Shown here one piece after another: positions 56,407 to 64,000 of a stretch of 64,000 nt of DNA. The stretch lies in the NCBI RefSeq assembly GCF_031312595.1, contig NZ_CP133592.1, forward strand, positions 2,604,001 through 2,668,000. Direction: 5' to 3'. This stretch comes from Methanolobus sediminis. GTDB taxonomy: Archaea > Halobacteriota > Methanosarcinia > Methanosarcinales > Methanosarcinaceae. Every line of letters begins with the position of its first letter. Positions within the stretch are counted from its first letter, which is position 1. The translations under genes were made by a program, and so were the position numbers. The notes under the pieces were generated by a model. It saw nothing but the letters and a program-made list of their open reading frames with translations, did no database searches and was not told the origin of the DNA.

Positions 56407-56711
56407 TAACAATACATCTACAATTATTTTTTATCATGTAACTGGTCAAATATCGAAGATTTATACAGAGCCAATCTCTCCTATTTTACTCATATGCATA
56501 CATAAAAATAATCAGCAAGAATATAAAAGATAAGTGCCGCCTCTGGAAATCGACATATTTATATAACAATACTAAGTTCACATGTATTATCTTATAATGA
56601 AAGGATTGTAGTAAATTAAGCAATATGTATATGTTATTATTTATGAGTTAATTTTTATTAACTCATAATCGTTGGTTGTTGAAACATATACTCAATCTAC
56701 AGGGTGGTACA
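56407..56711. other. promoter and leader of the CobN-like operon
   Basis: 305 bases. ATATTTATATAAC near 56556-56568 is a good TATA element. The perfect hairpin at 56641-56668 follows in the presumed leader, and AGGGTGGT at about 56701-56708 is the ribosome-binding site for 56712. Confidence 0.5.
56641..56668. promoter_or_regulatory. 28-bp perfect palindrome ahead of the CobN-like operon
   Basis: Arms TTATGAGTTAAT (56641-56652) and ATTAACTCATAA (56657-56668) with a TTTT loop, 12 bp without mismatch, 44 bases before the first gene. It could be an operator for a dimeric repressor or an RNA hairpin in the leader. Confidence 0.6.
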
Positions 56712-57386
56712 ATGAGCTATGTATATGCAGCCGTAATCGGCATACTGATAGGCATCTTTATCTTCGGGCTAAAGACCGGAGTTGGATGTGGCTTTTCAAC
56801 GGTAAAGAAAAAAGATGTATTGATACTTGCAAGTGGTTATTTTCTTATCCCCATCATACTTGGAAGCCTTGTGGAAATGGTTGATCAGTCATACCTGGAA
56901 GGGGTTGCAGATCTTGGAATGACATTACACGTTTTCATTGCATTGTTTCTCATTGCTGCAGGTGTTTACACACAGAAAAAATGGAACTGCGGACACGATG
57001 TCTCAAAAAAGACCTTCCTTGTAATATCCGTCCCCTGTCCGGTATGTCTCACAGCTCTTTTCGTATCATGCATGATACTGGCCTCAACCCTTGAAATGAG
57101 CGGCTGGAAGGTCGGAATCATTGTAGGACTTGTATTCTTCATTTCAGTAATATCATCAACATTCATCTTCAGGAAAATGAAACGTACACCCGAAGATCTT
57201 GGAACCACAATGATGTTTCTCGGGCTTTTCTATCTTCTCGGAGCAATGATAGTTCCCGCTTACATCAAAGCAAAAAAACTCAGCATGGAATTCAGTACAG
57301 GCGGAGATTTCGATATAGTTCCTCTGTTGGTATTATCAATATTCATAATTGGAGGCTATGCGCTCAATAGCATAAGAGGTCAATAA
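56712..57386 (+). CDS. DUF2162 predicted transporter
   Basis: 224 residues from ATG 56712 (AGGGTGGT). Six or seven transmembrane helices. DUF2162 pattern with GLKTGVGCGFSTVKKKDVLILASGYF and conserved Cys in VPCPVCLTALFVSCM. The first gene of an operon with an ExbB-like channel, a DUF2149 protein and the CobN-like surface protein; gaps are 2 bases, a 4-base overlap and 153 bases. As I recall, the same set accompanies HmuS in Bacteroidetes haem operons, so a role in tetrapyrrole or metal passage is likely. Confidence 0.83.
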   Translation: MSYVYAAVIGILIGIFIFGLKTGVGCGFSTVKKKDVLILASGYFLIPIILGSLVEMVDQSYLEGVADLGMTLHVFIALFLIAAGVYTQKKWNCGHDVSKKTFLVISVPCPVCLTALFVSCMILASTLEMSGWKVGIIVGLVFFISVISSTFIFRKMKRTPEDLGTTMMFLGLFYLLGAMIVPAYIKAKKLSMEFSTGGDFDIVPLLVLSIFIIGGYALNSIRGQ

Positions 57387-57388
57387 AA

Positions 57389-58012
57389 ATGGATGCTACT
57401 TCATCGTTATTTGGTATATTATACACATTTTCAGCATCATTGCTGTACCCGGTAATTATCATTCTCATATTGCTTGTGGTATTTTCTTTGATGCTCATAG
57501 GGGAATTCCTTTCGGAGTATTCAAAAAGGCACAGAGATATCGAAAACCTTGAACTTTGCTGTAATGCTGTCAGGGAACATGTGGGTTCCCAGGAATATAA
57601 TAAGGCAGCAAAGTCTCTTCGCAACATTAAACAGAATTTCATGGTAATGAGCTTTGCAGAATCTGCAGCCGGCCATCTGGAAAAGAACATGTTACCAGCC
57701 ATAGAATGGCTTTCTCAGGAATATGAGATAAGAATGGCAAAGAGGCTGGAGCAGACCAGGATTGTTGCGACGATCTCACCAATGCTTGGTCTTATGGGAA
57801 CACTTATCCCTCTTGGTCCTGCACTTATCGGTCTTTCACAGGGAGATATCGTGCAGCTTGCAAACAATCTTATGATCGCTTTTGCAACAACTGTTATCGG
57901 ACTTTTTGCAGGAACAATTGGTTACGTTCTCACCCAGGTCAGAAAAAGATGGTATTGGCAGGACATGGCAGATATCGATTATATCCTTGACACGTTGGAG
58001 GTTGAAGAGTGA
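57389..58012 (+). CDS. MotA/TolQ/ExbB proton-channel family protein
   Basis: 207 residues with three transmembrane segments: about 10-38, and the conserved pair at 125-150 and 165-190 carrying VATISPMLGLMGTLIPLGPALIGLSQGD and IAFATTVIGLFAGTIGYVL, the TolQ/ExbB signature. Between helices 1 and 2 is a cytoplasmic helical domain with LEKNMLPAIEWLSQEYEIRMAKRLEQ. Uses proton flow to power a surface process; the coupled DUF2149 protein is the likely ExbD counterpart. Overlaps the next gene by four bases. Confidence 0.88.
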   Translation: MDATSSLFGILYTFSASLLYPVIIILILLVVFSLMLIGEFLSEYSKRHRDIENLELCCNAVREHVGSQEYNKAAKSLRNIKQNFMVMSFAESAAGHLEKNMLPAIEWLSQEYEIRMAKRLEQTRIVATISPMLGLMGTLIPLGPALIGLSQGDIVQLANNLMIAFATTVIGLFAGTIGYVLTQVRKRWYWQDMADIDYILDTLEVEE

Positions 58013-58398
58013 AAGGGAGGAGAAGGTACAGGCGAACCGGACTCATAAACAACGAGGATGAGCAAAACCCCTTAACAGGGGTTGCCAACCTCTTTGATAT
58101 TGCCATGGTTTTCTCAGTTGCATTACTCGTAGCACTTGTTATGTCTTACCAGATGCCTGAGCTTCTAAATCCTACAGAGGATATCACTCTTGTGAAAAAC
58201 CCTGGCCAGAAGGATATGCAGATCATCATTAAGGAAGAAGGCAAACCCCTTGAGGTGCTGAACATGACCGATCAGATCGGTGGCGGTACCGGGGAGGCAT
58301 TGGGTACGGCATACAAACTTGCCGATGGCAGGGTTGTTTATGTACCTGAAGATGAGGAAGGTGGTGAAGAGGAGGTAGAAACTGCTACTTCCGATTAA
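58009..58398 (+). CDS. DUF2149 protein, ExbD-like partner
   Basis: 129 residues starting with GTG overlapped by the stop of the channel gene (GTGA). Basic N-terminus (KGRRRYRRTG), one transmembrane helix (LFDIAMVFSVALLVALVMSY, with an Asp at its start as in ExbD/TolR), then an extracytoplasmic domain (DMQIIIKEEGKPLEVLNMTDQIGGGTGEALGTAYKLADGRVVYVP) and an acidic tail. The layout is that of ExbD/TolR/MotB stators. Precedes the CobN-like gene with 153 bases between. Confidence 0.82.
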   Translation: MKGRRRYRRTGLINNEDEQNPLTGVANLFDIAMVFSVALLVALVMSYQMPELLNPTEDITLVKNPGQKDMQIIIKEEGKPLEVLNMTDQIGGGTGEALGTAYKLADGRVVYVPEDEEGGEEEVETATSD

Positions 58399-58420
58399 TT
58401 TTTTTTCTAATATTTGAGCA

Positions 58421-58443
58421 AGTTGATTTGTTTTAAATCAACT
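58421..58443 (+). promoter_or_regulatory. intercistronic hairpin after DUF2149 gene
   Basis: AGTTGATTT (58421-58429) pairs with AAATCAACT (58435-58443) over GTTTT. No T-run follows, so it is more likely an mRNA processing or stability hairpin than a terminator. Confidence 0.45.
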
Positions 58444-58467
58444 GCAATTTACATAAGTGGTTGGTGG

Positions 58468-58554
58468 ATAGGAACATGAAAACATGGTGGAGCATTTCGG
58501 CACAGCCTGCAAGCAAAGTAGCCGAAATGCTGCACGTTATCGAGGGATAACATG
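58468..58554 (+). ncRNA. leader RNA motif upstream of first CobN-like gene (copy A)
   Basis: Parts in order: box ATAGGAAC (58468-58475) followed by ATGAAAACA; 11-bp perfect stem AGCATTTCGGC (58491-58501) / GCCGAAATGCT (58521-58531); 19-base loop holding AGCCTGCAAGCAAA; linker GCAC; second hairpin GTTATC-GAGG-GATAAC (58536-58551), whose loop plus next base gives GAGGG, the ribosome-binding site; the ATG (58552) follows the stem without a gap. Copy B at 63543 keeps the box, the loop and the second hairpin, but has an unrelated first-stem sequence that still pairs. This points to a selected RNA structure controlling translation. Confidence 0.75.
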
Positions 58555-61500
58555 CAGGAAAAGAGAATAATAATATTATTCATAAGTCTATTGTTGTTAC
58601 TTTCACTAACAACAACAGCATCGGCAGAAGAAAATGAATATTATCTGGTCGCTAATACGACCAGTGATGCAGATGGGAATTTTGTATTTGAGGCTATTCC
58701 TCAGGGAAATTATACAATAATTGCTATTAATGAGACACTCAAAAAAGGAAACATTATTTACTACAATAAGGAACTTGGCATAAGCGTAAATGAAACTGAT
58801 ATTTTGAATTTTAATGTGTCACTCGACAGTGGTGGTGATGTCGATCATGATGAAGTGGAGTCTCTTTTAGCTTCAAAATCAAAGACTTCATCAATATCAG
58901 GAAGAACTTTTTACTATTCGTCAGGAATGGGTAAGGAATATTCAAAAATATGTACAATAGCACTGCTTTATGCCAATGAATATGTAGTTGCAAGTACAAC
59001 AAGTGACGCAAACGGAAACTTCACACTTGATGATATTCCTGAAGGAAATTACACAATAGTAGCTATTAATGAAACAATCAAGAGTGGAAGCACCACCTAT
59101 TACAATAAGGAACTTGACATAAGCGTAAATGAAACTGATATTTCAAATTTCAATGTATCACTTGATAGTGGCGGAGCTGTCGATCATGATGAAGTGGAGT
59201 CACTCTTAATCTCTAAATCAAAGATTTCATCAATATCTGGAAGAACTTATTACTATTCGTCAGGAATGGGTAAGGAATATTCTAAAATATGTTCAGTCCT
59301 TCTTACAAAAAGAGATTCAGTTGAAGAGGTCTCAAATGCTCCACATCTGAACGTATCCATAATAACAGGGTATTCTTCATATGAGGAAGAACTTGCAAAT
59401 TTTACAGAGAGGATCAATTCTAATTCTGAGTTGAACATAACCGTAAGTTCGTATATCACCACTAACTTACCAGATAATATTAGTCTGAGTAATATGGATA
59501 TCATCTATATTGTGATGGTTACTCAGAGTGCATCTGAATTTGAAACTGCTGTTCAGGAAGCTATTGATAATGGTGCATTGGTAATTGGCTCAAATACATA
59601 TTTGCCTGAAAGTAATTATACAATTCCTGCAGATGAAGACGAATCCAGCTTTAAAGAACTTCTGTCTGATTACTGGTCAGGAACTTCCTTTGATAACACT
59701 AATTTAGACAATTTAATATTTTACTTGGCTCAGGAATACTATGGCCGTACGGATTTAACTGTAGAAGATCCCACTGGTTTACTGAGGGCTATTTATCATC
59801 CATCAATGAATGGAACTCTAGTTGATTATTTTACAAACGATGCCGATGAATACTTTAGCTGGTACACTAATAGGTCAGATGGGCATGTTTTTGACGTAAT
59901 TGCACCTACAGTAGGTATTACATTTTATGGTTCTTACTATCCTGACGACATGGATCCTATAGACAAACTCATAGAAGGGTTTGAGAACAGGGGAATAAAT
60001 GTAGTTGCATGCTATGGAAACTCTGCCAATACTATTGATGATTACTTTAACCACAGTACTGAAACAAAGGTTGATACAGTTGTATCGTTCAATTACCGTG
60101 GTAACTACTTTGACATCGAATCGCTTGGTGTTCCTGTCATGAACGCTGTTCTCAACGGTTACATGAATACCAGTGAATGGATTGAATCCAGTACACCTTT
60201 ACCTGAAACAAATATGCTCCGGATATATGGTCCTGAAACAGATGGTCTCATAGATTCAATTATGATTGGTGCACTGGAGACTTTTGTAGAAGGCAACACT
60301 ACCGTTGAGAAATACATCGGTCACGATGATCAGATAGACTGGCTAATTGACCGTACAATTGCACAGGCTGAACTTGGAACTGAGGATGAGTCTGACAAAA
60401 AAGTTGTCATTCTTTACTACAACCACGGTGGTGGAAAGGACAACATAGGAGCATCATATCTGGAGGTCATGCCAAGTATTGTGAACCTGCTCGAAGGAAT
60501 GGCAGACGAAGGCTATGACATAAACAGCAGTCTGATACCAAACAAGACTGAACTTGTAGATCTTATTGTCTATCAGGGAAGAAATGTCGGTACCTGGGCA
60601 CCGGGAGAACTTGAAGCACTTGTTGAAACCGGTGAAGTTGAGCTTATTCCTGAGAGCACCTATCTTTCATGGTTCAATGAACTTCCAGAAGAGAGAAGGG
60701 AAGAAGTAGTTGATATGTGGGGAGAAGCTCCTGGCGAGATAATGGTGTACACAGATGAAAATGGTGACAAGTTTATCGTTATCCCTAAGATCAATATCAG
60801 TGACAATGTGATTCTTGCTCCACAGCCAACAAGGGGATGGTTGCAGGATAATGAAGTGCTCTATCACGATACAGAACTCCCACCACATCACCAGTATATC
60901 GCATTCTATTTCTGGTTACAGCACGAGTTTGATGCTGACGTTATGGTAAATATGGGGAGACACGGAACAGTTGAATGGCTACCAGGAAAGGACTTCTGTC
61001 TGTTGAGTGATGAATGGCCTGCCCTTATGGTCGGTGACATACCTGTCATCTATCCATATGTAATGGATGGAATGGGTGAAGGTATGCAGGCAAAACGCAG
61101 GGGCAATGCAATTATTATCGATCACCTGATACCACCTGTTGTGTCTGCCGGTCTTTACGGAAATTACAGCAGCCTTAGCAATGACATAACTTCTTATCAG
61201 ACACTGAGCACTGAAAATGACGAGTTGAAACAGTCATATCTGCAGAGTATAGTAAATTTGACACTCGATCTTGGACTGGATTCACAGGTCAACATGAGTC
61301 TTGCAGAGGATGAAACTACTATTGATGAATTCCTCGAAGAGCTGGATGACATACTCACTGAACTGAAGAGTCAGTCCATGCCATACGGTCTTCACGTCCT
61401 TGGTGAAGCACCTGAAGGAGAAGCTCTTGTAGGAATGGTCAATTCTATGCTTGGAGATGAGTTCACAGATCTTGTTGCAGTTTACAATAGTTCTGATAAT

Positions 61501-63486
61501 GCATCCACTGACTTGCTTTCACTGGTACTGCTGGACAATATGTCCACAACTGCAGCCCAGATACAGATACTTGGAATTTCTGAGGCAGATGCGGATATAG
61601 ATTCACAGCTTAATACCTCCATAAACTACGCTGAATTACTTGGTGAGGCTGATAATGAAGTACAGCAGGTACTGAATGCAATGGATGGAGAATACATCAG
61701 TGCAAACCTTGGCGGTGACCCGGTACTTCGTTCCGAGACGCTTCCGTCAGGTAGCAATTTCTATGCATTTGATGAGCAGCTCATACCTACCGAAGAGGCA
61801 TGGAATCAGGGTAAAGCACTTGTTGACGAGTGGCTTGCAGAATATTATGCTGAGAACGGTGAGTATCCAACTAAAGTGGGATACATACTCTGGGCAGGAG
61901 AATCCACACGTCATCAGGGAGTGATGGAATCCCAACTTCTCTACATGATGGGAATCAAGCCTGTCTGGAATGCTGATAACAGTGAAGTTGAGGATGTTGT
62001 GGTAATCAATTCATCAGAACTTGGAAGACCACGTATCGATGTACTTGTACAGATATCCGGTCTTTACAGGGACACATTCCCGATGAAGGTTAAGCTGATC
62101 GATAAAGCGGTTAGACTTGCATATGAACAGGGAGAAACTGACGAGTATGATAACTATGTCACTCAAAATACGGATGCAATTCAGCTTGTTCTGAATGAAA
62201 CACTGGAAGATGGCAACCTTTCACTTGACATAGCACAGTTCAGAGTCTTCGGTCCTGCTGACGGTGCTTATGGTACCGGAATGGCAAATGCAGTTGATTC
62301 CAGTGACACCTGGAATGACACCAGTGTACTTGCAGAACTCTATGTCAGCAAGATGAGCTATGTCTACGGAGAAAATGTATGGGGACAGACGATATCCGAA
62401 TACATCGAGCAGCAGACCGGTCGTGTAGTTGATATCGATAATTCAGTGGTCTTTGAGAGCAATCTTAACGGAACTGCAGCAATATTCCATAGCAGAAGTT
62501 CCAGTACATATGGTTGCCTTGATACTGATGACTTCTACCAGTATATGGGTGGCTTGTACAATGCTATCAAATACATCACGGGTACAGGACCTGATACTTA
62601 TGTGGTGAACCTGCAGGATCTCAATGATGCGGAGATTCAGACACTTCAAACATACCTCACAAACGAGCTGTATGCTAGATACCTGAATCCATCATGGATT
62701 GAAGGAATGCAGCTTAGTGGTTATGAAGGTGCACTTGCAATGTCTGACTTCATTGATAATCTCTGGGGATGGGAAGCGCTCAGTCCGGATCTTATCAGTG
62801 ATGATGTCTGGAACAGTGTGTATGATACCTACATGAGTAATGCAGAGCTCAGCAGCTGGATGCAGGAAAATAACCCATATGCATACCAGTCCATGCTTGC
62901 AAGGATGACTGAAACTATTAGAAAAGAAAGTTGGGACGCTTCAGATGATACTCTTAATGATCTGGTATCCCAGCAGATAAAATCAGTCATTGAGAATGGA
63001 GCCACATGCTGTCATCACACTTGTGGAAACATTTTGAATCAGGAATTTATTACAGGAATTGCACAGGCACTCGTAGATGCAGGAGAATTGACTCAGGCTG
63101 AACTTGACAAGTATCTGGAAATTATGAAAGAAGCCACTACTTCCAGTATTGTGTTAAAGGATACTTCTGTAAGTACTCCTACTTCTACTTCTTCTGATTC
63201 ACTCAACTCTGTCCAAAGGGCAATGGCTTCTCAAGCAGCAGCCAACCAGAGCTCAACATCTGAGTCAGGTGGTGCCGGAGTAAACACAGTACAACCTCTG
63301 GAGGAAGGCTCAAAGTCCACTCCGGATGACTATGTAGAAGGTTATGAAATGACTCGGTCGAGTGTTTCTGATGCCACCTCACCTAACAGTCCACCGATCT
63401 CAGGTTCTGATGTTCTTGCAATGGGATTTGTAGTTACATTAGTAGGTTCAATTTACATTGGATTCTGGAAGAGGAGAAAGATATGA
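58552..63486 (+). CDS. cell-surface CobN-like cobaltochelatase family protein
   Basis: 1,644 residues. Signal peptide 1-25; two carboxypeptidase-regulatory-like repeats (about 28-140 and 141-253, 113-residue period) with DADGNF...IPQGNYTIIAINET; CobN/Mg-chelatase H region about 265-1540 with NHGGGKDNIGASYLEVMPSI, LAPQPTRGW, MGRHGTVEWLPGKDFCLL, DLIPP-like IIIDHLIPPVVSAGLYG, GYILWAGESTRHQGVMESQLLYMMG, RPRIDVLVQISGLYRDTFP and FGPADGAYGTGM. A Cys/His motif ATCCHHTCGN lies near 1485. Ser/Thr-rich linker, transmembrane helix and RRKI end. It is anchored outside the membrane, so it cannot be the cytosolic cobalamin-synthesis chelatase; haem-type tetrapyrrole demetallation as in HmuS is the nearest precedent. 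Confidence 0.88.
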   Translation: MQEKRIIILFISLLLLLSLTTTASAEENEYYLVANTTSDADGNFVFEAIPQGNYTIIAINETLKKGNIIYYNKELGISVNETDILNFNVSLDSGGDVDHDEVESLLASKSKTSSISGRTFYYSSGMGKEYSKICTIALLYANEYVVASTTSDANGNFTLDDIPEGNYTIVAINETIKSGSTTYYNKELDISVNETDISNFNVSLDSGGAVDHDEVESLLISKSKISSISGRTYYYSSGMGKEYSKICSVLLTKRDSVEEVSNAPHLNVSIITGYSSYEEELANFTERINSNSELNITVSSYITTNLPDNISLSNMDIIYIVMVTQSASEFETAVQEAIDNGALVIGSNTYLPESNYTIPADEDESSFKELLSDYWSGTSFDNTNLDNLIFYLAQEYYGRTDLTVEDPTGLLRAIYHPSMNGTLVDYFTNDADEYFSWYTNRSDGHVFDVIAPTVGITFYGSYYPDDMDPIDKLIEGFENRGINVVACYGNSANTIDDYFNHSTETKVDTVVSFNYRGNYFDIESLGVPVMNAVLNGYMNTSEWIESSTPLPETNMLRIYGPETDGLIDSIMIGALETFVEGNTTVEKYIGHDDQIDWLIDRTIAQAELGTEDESDKKVVILYYNHGGGKDNIGASYLEVMPSIVNLLEGMADEGYDINSSLIPNKTELVDLIVYQGRNVGTWAPGELEALVETGEVELIPESTYLSWFNELPEERREEVVDMWGEAPGEIMVYTDENGDKFIVIPKINISDNVILAPQPTRGWLQDNEVLYHDTELPPHHQYIAFYFWLQHEFDADVMVNMGRHGTVEWLPGKDFCLLSDEWPALMVGDIPVIYPYVMDGMGEGMQAKRRGNAIIIDHLIPPVVSAGLYGNYSSLSNDITSYQTLSTENDELKQSYLQSIVNLTLDLGLDSQVNMSLAEDETTIDEFLEELDDILTELKSQSMPYGLHVLGEAPEGEALVGMVNSMLGDEFTDLVAVYNSSDNASTDLLSLVLLDNMSTTAAQIQILGISEADADIDSQLNTSINYAELLGEADNEVQQVLNAMDGEYISANLGGDPVLRSETLPSGSNFYAFDEQLIPTEEAWNQGKALVDEWLAEYYAENGEYPTKVGYILWAGESTRHQGVMESQLLYMMGIKPVWNADNSEVEDVVVINSSELGRPRIDVLVQISGLYRDTFPMKVKLIDKAVRLAYEQGETDEYDNYVTQNTDAIQLVLNETLEDGNLSLDIAQFRVFGPADGAYGTGMANAVDSSDTWNDTSVLAELYVSKMSYVYGENVWGQTISEYIEQQTGRVVDIDNSVVFESNLNGTAAIFHSRSSSTYGCLDTDDFYQYMGGLYNAIKYITGTGPDTYVVNLQDLNDAEIQTLQTYLTNELYARYLNPSWIEGMQLSGYEGALAMSDFIDNLWGWEALSPDLISDDVWNSVYDTYMSNAELSSWMQENNPYAYQSMLARMTETIRKESWDASDDTLNDLVSQQIKSVIENGATCCHHTCGNILNQEFITGIAQALVDAGELTQAELDKYLEIMKEATTSSIVLKDTSVSTPTSTSSDSLNSVQRAMASQAAANQSSTSESGGAGVNTVQPLEEGSKSTPDDYVEGYEMTRSSVSDATSPNSPPISGSDVLAMGFVVTLVGSIYIGFWKRRKI
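58633..59305 (+). repeat. duplicated 113-codon module inside CobN-like gene
   Basis: Two tandem modules 339 bases apart with long identical stretches, for example TACAATAAGGAACTTG, GTCGATCATGATGAAGTGGA and ATTCGTCAGGAATGGGTAAG. Synonymous differences are few in the second half of each module, pointing to a recent duplication or gene conversion. Confidence 0.85.
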
Positions 63487-63495
63487 AAACTTTTT

Positions 63496-63520
63496 AGGCG
63501 CATTTATGCGCCTGCTTTTA
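63496..63520 (+). terminator. terminator between the two CobN-like genes
   Basis: AGGCGCA (63496-63502) and TGCGCCT (63507-63513) with a TTTA loop, followed by GCTTTTA. Starts ten bases after the first CobN-like gene and only 30 bases before leader copy B. Confidence 0.7.
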
Positions 63521-63542
63521 CAATTGTAAAATTAAACAGGGT

Positions 63543-63629
63543 ATAGGAACGAGAAACAATTAAGACACTCCCAAAAAGCCGCCAAGCAAGAATTGGGAGT
63601 GTCAACACACGTTATCGGGGGATAACATG
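63543..63629 (+). ncRNA. leader RNA motif upstream of second CobN-like gene (copy B)
   Basis: Box ATAGGAAC (63543-63550) then GAGAAACA; 11-bp perfect stem GACACTCCCAA (63564-63574) / TTGGGAGTGTC (63593-63603); 18-base loop with AGCCGCCAAGCAAG; linker AACACAC; hairpin GTTATC-GGGG-GATAAC (63611-63626), with GGGGG as ribosome-binding site; ATG at 63627 directly after the stem. See copy A at 58468 for the comparison. Both copies have the same order and nearly the same spacing (23 versus 21 bases from box to stem). Confidence 0.75.
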
Positions 63630-64000
63630 CAAGAAAGAAGTATATTGGTAATACTATTAAGTGTATTGTTGCTGGCATCAGCAACAACGATCGTATCGGC
63701 AGACGAAAACGATGTGAACGTCACCATCATCACCTATGATGATGCAGAAGTGATTGATTATGCTAAAAATGCAAACATCTACAATGAAAGCATAAATGTT
63801 CAGTATTTTACAACAAAGGATAATCTAACTGATATTGATCTCAGTAACCAGGACATAATATTTACCTACATGCTTTGGGGTTCTAAATACGAACAATTCT
63901 CCGACGAGATGGAGAAGGCAAAGGCTGAAGGAACTACTCTTGTGAACATTGCAAGTTACATTGACACATCCCTATATGATTACGATTTTAGTGGAGGCGA
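63627..64000 (+). CDS. second CobN-like surface protein, cut by window end
   Basis: The first 124 residues only. The signal peptide (MQERSILVILLSVLLLASATTIVSADE) resembles that of the preceding CobN-like protein (MQEKRIIILFISLLLLL...). The mature start goes straight into the NVTIITYDDAEVIDYAKNANIYNESINVQYFTT segment, equivalent to residues about 265 onward of the first protein (LNVSIITGYSSYEEELANF), so the N-terminal repeat modules are absent. Same leader motif, presumably same regulation. A paralogue with a different substrate or metal is plausible. Confidence 0.8.
   Translation, partial: MQERSILVILLSVLLLASATTIVSADENDVNVTIITYDDAEVIDYAKNANIYNESINVQYFTTKDNLTDIDLSNQDIIFTYMLWGSKYEQFSDEMEKAKAEGTTLVNIASYIDTSLYDYDFSGG

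Follow-up and report, generated by a model that had tools for sequence, protein, structure and literature searches.

The antisense RNAs that most resemble the element described here are CopA of plasmid R1 and Inc RNA of ColIb-P9, both short stem-loop RNAs that lie opposite a 5' UTR and display a YUNR loop, a motif that occurs in the loop of either the antisense or the sense RNA of such U-turn systems (PMC4485353). IS10 RNA-OUT, according to a title cited in PMC3432209, is similar in that the translation start is occluded. In contrast to these plasmid and transposon regulators, the present element, which we read as the gene of a cis-encoded antisense RNA, is archaeal, chromosomal and conserved throughout a family, with a predicted promoter located in signal-peptide codons and a secreted chelatase as its target. 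No homology to the described U-turn families (CopA, Inc RNA) was found and no Rfam match was obtained on either strand; convergence is the more likely source of the resemblance.

Within the archaea, cis-antisense RNAs have been listed for M. mazei, H. salinarum and Methanolobus psychrophilus, and the RNA predicted here from sequence would belong to the same class of transcripts. In M. mazei 43 cis-antisense RNAs were reported, several of them over transposases (PMC3432209). Antisense starts over 5' UTRs are frequent, as in Methanolobus psychrophilus, where 22% of 1110 antisense start sites overlap 5' UTRs (PMC5378194), and we counted this frequency in favour of an antisense reading. RNA-seq detects antisense transcripts in abundance in archaea, and signs of selection have been shown for few of them. 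Unlike these mostly bare transcript lists, the element studied here has a structure, promoter and loop that covary or are conserved in about 12 genera, and its target is not a transposase.

Two further systems invite comparison through the gene that follows the element. The cobalamin riboswitch (RF00174) also sits upstream of a CobN-superfamily gene, but the present element has no Rfam match and differs from it in size, fold and probably strand. The hmuYRSTUV operon of Bacteroidota contains a CobN/HmuS homologue as well, in the order CobN-like, hypothetical, MotA/ExbB, DUF2149 (PMC10434189). No hmuYRSTUV operon with an RNA of this type is reported in the literature searched, and full-text searches yielded no report of the element itself. 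As far as comparative analysis can tell, the family appears to be new and the kind of regulator known; what would set it apart is its archaeal host, a promoter hidden in signal-peptide codons, covariation throughout the family and a U-turn moved by inversion.

Two copies of the element and their target genes

The window, the whole 64-kb stretch of Methanolobus sediminis DNA that was analysed, contains two 87-nt copies, A (58468-58554) and B (63543-63629). The initial annotation had described both as two-hairpin leaders in front of CobN-like genes; its coordinates are exact, and each copy closes with the start codon (ATG) of a CobN-like ORF. A search of the entire 2.8-Mb genome returned these two copies only, with no trans-encoded or orphan copy. 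Both folds are far more stable than expected from composition (z = -5.25 for A and -4.71 for B), with none of 200 shuffles equally stable. The features are as follows, with strands given relative to the target genes' strand (+).

58468..58475 (copy A) and 63543-63550 (copy B), + strand: ATAGGAAC box, outside the conserved core and lost beyond close Methanolobus relatives
58483..58555, - strand: predicted antisense RNA of copy A, two hairpins; predicted 5' end at 58555, opposite CDS base 4
58532..58555, - strand: antisense hairpin 1 of copy A, 10 bp spanning the start codon and the Shine-Dalgarno (SD) sequence, which faces the loop CCUC
58491..58531, - strand: antisense hairpin 2 of copy A, 11-bp stem with a U-turn loop (antisense GCUUGCAGGC)
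58579..58593, - strand: predicted antisense promoter of copy A (BRE and TATA, CAATAGACTTATGAA) in signal-peptide codons; matrix score 7.8
58552..63486, + strand: target gene A, 1644 aa, a secreted, C-terminally anchored CobN/HmuS-like protein
63556..63630, - strand: predicted antisense RNA of copy B, two hairpins; predicted 5' end at 63630
63607..63630, - strand: antisense hairpin 1 of copy B, 10 bp spanning the start codon and the SD, which faces the loop CCCC
63564..63603, - strand: antisense hairpin 2 of copy B, 11-bp stem with a UUGGCG U-turn loop (antisense UUGCUUGGCGGC)
63654..63668, - strand: predicted antisense promoter of copy B (CAATACACTTAATAG) in signal-peptide codons; score 1.4
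63627..64000 and past the window end (L003 5628-9917), + strand: target gene B, 1429 aa, a second secreted CobN-like protein

Both target proteins belong to the CobN/HmuS/ChlH superfamily and, as read from their sequences, carry a signal peptide and a C-terminal anchor. Protein A matches PF02514 with 1063 bits, and its best match among solved structures is the heme dechelatase HmuS (9d26, E 6e-140); protein B matches PF02514 with 967 bits and has CobN as its top match. Genes for DUF2162, MotA/ExbB and DUF2149 proteins lie upstream of gene A, and the latter two fit the annotations of HmuU and HmuV (PMC10434189). Judged by these domain assignments, the DUF2162, MotA/ExbB and DUF2149 genes together with the two CobN/HmuS-like genes (56676-63486 and L003 5628-9917) are an hmuT/U/V/S-like cluster, putatively for tetrapyrrole dechelation. 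It differs from the bacterial operon in being archaeal, and neither hmuY nor hmuR was seen nearby. A 2025 paper on HmuS notes many archaeal homologues whose use is unclear (PMC12583661). Since the targets are secreted, anchored CobN/HmuS members beside hmu-type genes, a corrinoid ligand is not implied. If the regulation proposed below is correct, a set of surface tetrapyrrole chelatases in methanogens would be marked as tightly regulated. Directly downstream of gene B lie two winged-helix regulators (L003 10002-11360), which are ArsR-like, one of them with a weak HTH_metalloreg match; they are possible transcriptional regulators of the cluster.

Distribution and covariation of the element

A covariance model built from copies A and B alone detected the element about 60 times among 120 relatives, 36 of which had a match, and a refined model placed the element in 62 of 112 Methanosarcinaceae genomes, representing 11 of the family's 14 genera. 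In total, covariance models recovered about 95 further copies from the 60-odd Methanosarcinaceae genomes that have the element; leader and signal peptide are so alike within genera that these copies do not count as independent events. Outside the family there was a single strong match, in a genome of the same order (G092), and a search of 393 genomes of the phylum gave only weak singletons beyond these. An exact pattern searched across 84,980 species matched only Methanolobus, Methanomethylovorans and one Methanosarcinaceae MAG, and the element was not found in viral contigs. Nearly every strong match adjoins the ATG of a secreted CobN-like gene or of a truncated remnant of one, and a genome that has no CobN-like genes (G005) has no element either. 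The reverse does not hold: many CobN-like paralogues have no element (11 of 12 in one genome, G131), and it is thus not essential to the CobN-like family. Eighteen such leaderless paralogues served as a control set.

Aligned on the sense strand, 93% of cells are paired and 198 double changes are seen, compared with 66 in shuffles; within the long stem, all 11 pairs have double changes. The search of relatives that the initial annotation had proposed therefore produced both more copies and compensatory changes, which together with the stability beyond shuffles bear out its view that an RNA structure is under selection. Two of its more detailed statements needed revision. The 11-bp stem was said to be fully rewritten between A and B; it is indeed paired in both, but the two do share some sequence, in that the long stems across the roughly 95 copies follow one weak pattern (roughly RRRCAYTYCSS) and are mostly paired transitions apart. 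Likewise, the ATAGGAAC box and GAAA link, described as conserved, are so in A and B but not family-wide, being kept only in close Methanolobus relatives.

Several decayed or truncated CobN paralogues keep the element upstream (L015 1501-2146, L042, L043, L088 and L104); in these, the signal peptide is fused to the C-terminal anchor or a stop follows directly after the ATG. In genus g8 (L095, L096, L097 and L117) and in other genera, CobN-like proteins of one genus have near-identical leaders and signal peptides but differ in the N-terminal part of the mature protein, at what may be one common site. Recombination or gene conversion among CobN-like paralogues is possible on this pattern, and the combination of a common leader and signal peptide with divergent mature proteins also raised a site-specific recombination or silent-cassette model.

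The folded strand and a predicted antisense promoter

The two strands of the element differ in how well they fold. Hairpin 1 of the antisense strand has 10 bp, begins exactly opposite CDS base 4 and runs through the start codon; each of its ten pairs is formed in 96-100% of 90 copies, compared with 51% at CDS base 5. On the sense strand of the same 90 copies the outer pairs of this hairpin fail, with A1 paired in 21% and base 4 in 57%, and all four extension pairs are present in 81 copies on the antisense strand versus 16 on the sense strand. The terminal hairpin with the ribosome-binding site in its loop, as initially annotated, thus holds for the sense strand, where it has a core of 6 bp; its antisense counterpart is a 10-bp hairpin extending to CDS base 4. 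When 31 diverse copies are aligned on the antisense strand (A5), 98.3% of cells are paired (97.1% in helix 2), compared with 28-48% in slid versions, and double-change cells number 82 versus 22.9 in shuffles. Mean minimum free energies point the same way, at -32.1 for antisense and -25.5 for sense, with the antisense fold lower in 80 of 88 elements (p=2e-15); for copy B the values are -34.6 and -29.8 kcal/mol, respectively. The antisense RNA of copy A folds at -36.1 kcal/mol with a 10-bp 5' hairpin. It is matched by the R3 model at 2662483-2662555 on the minus strand (E 7e-16), and that of copy B at 2667556-2667630 on the same strand (E 1e-16).

Mismatches also bear on the strand. In hairpin 1 read on the sense strand, A.C occupies 57 cells and G.T only 3, whereas tRNA acceptor stems of the Methanolobus sediminis genome, used as a control, had 14 G.T and no A.C. 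Because A.C on the sense strand is G.U on the opposite one, these departures from pairing fit an antisense RNA. Stem 2 taken alone gave 17 A.C versus 9 G.T events, a difference that is not significant (p=0.17), and residual A.C mismatches are present on the antisense strand too. Taken together, these comparisons make the antisense strand the most likely source of the functional folded RNA.

An antisense RNA encoded in cis would have its own promoter opposite its target. From the regions upstream of 24 tRNAs in the Methanolobus sediminis genome we derived a BRE/TATA matrix, which is independent of the elements; across 91 elements its score on the antisense strand has a single peak, at -42, with z=12.1 relative to synonymous-codon shuffles. 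Such a promoter is accordingly predicted here: it has the consensus CAATACACTTAATAC, overlaps codons 10-14 in the signal peptide of the chelatase, and is spaced for a start near the complement of CDS base 4, where hairpin 1 begins. Scores above 0 were obtained for 91% of the 91 elements versus 11% of the 18 leaderless paralogues (p=3e-9), although the matches are weaker than tRNA promoters (median 2.1 versus 8.5 bits). The copy B promoter, CAATACACTTAATAG, is near the commonest promoter sequence of the element family. A search by position in the same elements found no fixed TATA on the sense strand. Codon usage reflects the same constraint, as 87 of 91 elements have C at CDS base 4 though codon 2 varies among Gln, Arg and His, and Leu11=TTA, Leu14=TTG and C4 are fixed in nearly all copies while adjacent Leu codons vary. 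Leu14 is TTG in each genus with Leu at this position, with rare TTA in Methanolobus. Among 84 loci with an upstream neighbour, that gene is on the same strand in 73 and on the opposite strand in 11, so that the antisense promoter would usually not serve a divergent gene. As a point of method, what covaries as a 'leader' can mirror a functional RNA on the opposite strand, and the strand can be told from A.C versus G.U counts and from synonymous constraint.

Loop inversion, proposed mechanism and alternatives

Of 71 distinct loops, 70 contain a YUNR U-turn (on the antisense strand in 59 and on the sense strand in 11), compared with 43+-4 in shuffles. The antisense loop is usually UUGCUUGGCGGC and its U-turn typically UUGGCG; the loop motif of ColIb-P9 Inc RNA is 5'-rUUGGCG-3'. 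The 11 sense-strand cases are the copies with an inverted loop (GCTTGGCGGC), which occurs in at least two lineages and is then conserved, namely in five Methanolobus species (L055, L062, L080, L081 and L082) and in a second genus, g8, with genomes of about 2 Mb (L095-L099 and L117). Inversion between the stem arms has occurred independently at least twice. Because a U-turn in either the antisense or the sense RNA suffices, such inversion would be tolerated. A pseudoknot between loop and SD was considered and dropped, as the inverted loops are G-rich and unable to pair with the SD.

We consider it highly probable that each element is the gene for a short cis-encoded antisense RNA that masks the ribosome-binding site and start codon of the chelatase mRNA, probably blocking its translation. 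Transcription would start from the BRE/TATA promoter inside the signal-peptide codons, opposite CDS base 4 in codon 2. The predicted RNA is fully complementary to the mRNA leader, SD and ATG included, and its 5' 10-bp hairpin would cover the start codon and SD region, while the longer second stem-loop would display the U-turn for fast kissing with the mRNA hairpin. Loop-loop kissing would then progress to extended pairing and prevent ribosome binding, such that the secreted CobN/HmuS-like protein would be made only if the mRNA outruns the antisense RNA. The RNA probably ends in a U-rich stretch after hairpin 2: runs of at least four A on the sense strand accompany 74% of elements versus 39% of leaderless paralogues, a difference that hints weakly at a U-tail acting as terminator. 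Computed duplexes are much more stable for cognate pairs (-187 and -180 kcal/mol) than for A/B cross pairs (-83 and -80 kcal/mol), and cross-regulation between paralogues through the near-identical hairpin at the ribosome-binding site is possible. A speculative extension, which we regard as rather doubtful, is that U-turn antisense RNAs, one per chelatase paralogue, cross-pair via this hairpin and silence one another so that few surface chelatases are made at once, with loop inversion swapping the U-turn partner and helping to insulate new paralogues.

The initial annotation had favoured a sense-strand leader that controls translation, either a riboswitch or a 5' UTR bound by a protein, with the SD located in the loop of a hairpin. 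Such a leader would account for a covarying structure that adjoins SD and ATG and is tied to one gene family, and the sense strand is also able to fold. We nevertheless consider it unlikely, since the outer pairs of hairpin 1 fail on that strand, changes there yield A.C and not G.U, and the promoter-like synonymous constraint in the signal peptide is left unexplained. Furthermore, a ligand or protein that reads the loop should not accept its inversion, which was kept in two lineages. No riboswitch in Rfam matches either; there were no gathering hits on either strand of the window, and relaxed E-values applied to copy A and 10 related loci gave noise only. The annotation was therefore right that this is not a cobalamin riboswitch and that the ribosome-binding site is involved. 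Its riboswitch or protein-binding leader was probably placed on the wrong strand, and the mechanism is then probably wrong as well, given pairing, wobble pattern, promoter, synonymous-codon constraint, U-turn and inverted loops, the observations on which the antisense reading is based.

An element acting as DNA (an operator, cruciform or recombination site, with inverted repeats kept by quasi-palindrome correction) is very unlikely. Stem pairs that covary with few wobbles, an invertible loop, and a leader and signal peptide seemingly exchanged among paralogues would all suit it. However, the arms differ between copies within one genome, which speaks against a common operator, and the G.U pairs of hairpin 1 are systematic on one strand only, which DNA pairing does not predict; promoter and U-turn would also go unexplained. 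The smallest chance is left for a real antisense promoter that acts mainly through transcriptional interference or yields mostly a long antisense transcript. In its favour, the U-tract that would mark the 3' end of a short RNA has weak support, but interference alone would have no use for a 5' end and two hairpins with a U-turn loop under strong structural selection. For the short antisense RNA, the strand, 5' end, promoter and structure, and how it is likely to pair, can be read from sequence comparison alone across a family of methanogens, which opens antisense control in archaea to direct tests with mutations that leave the protein unchanged.

Other strong 5' hairpins, with different loops, are frequent at CobN-like paralogues that lack the element (L134, L138, L135, L139 and L130). 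That of L135 has a 14-bp stem, and L134 and L138 have the loop CCGYTTYCACACAC in common.
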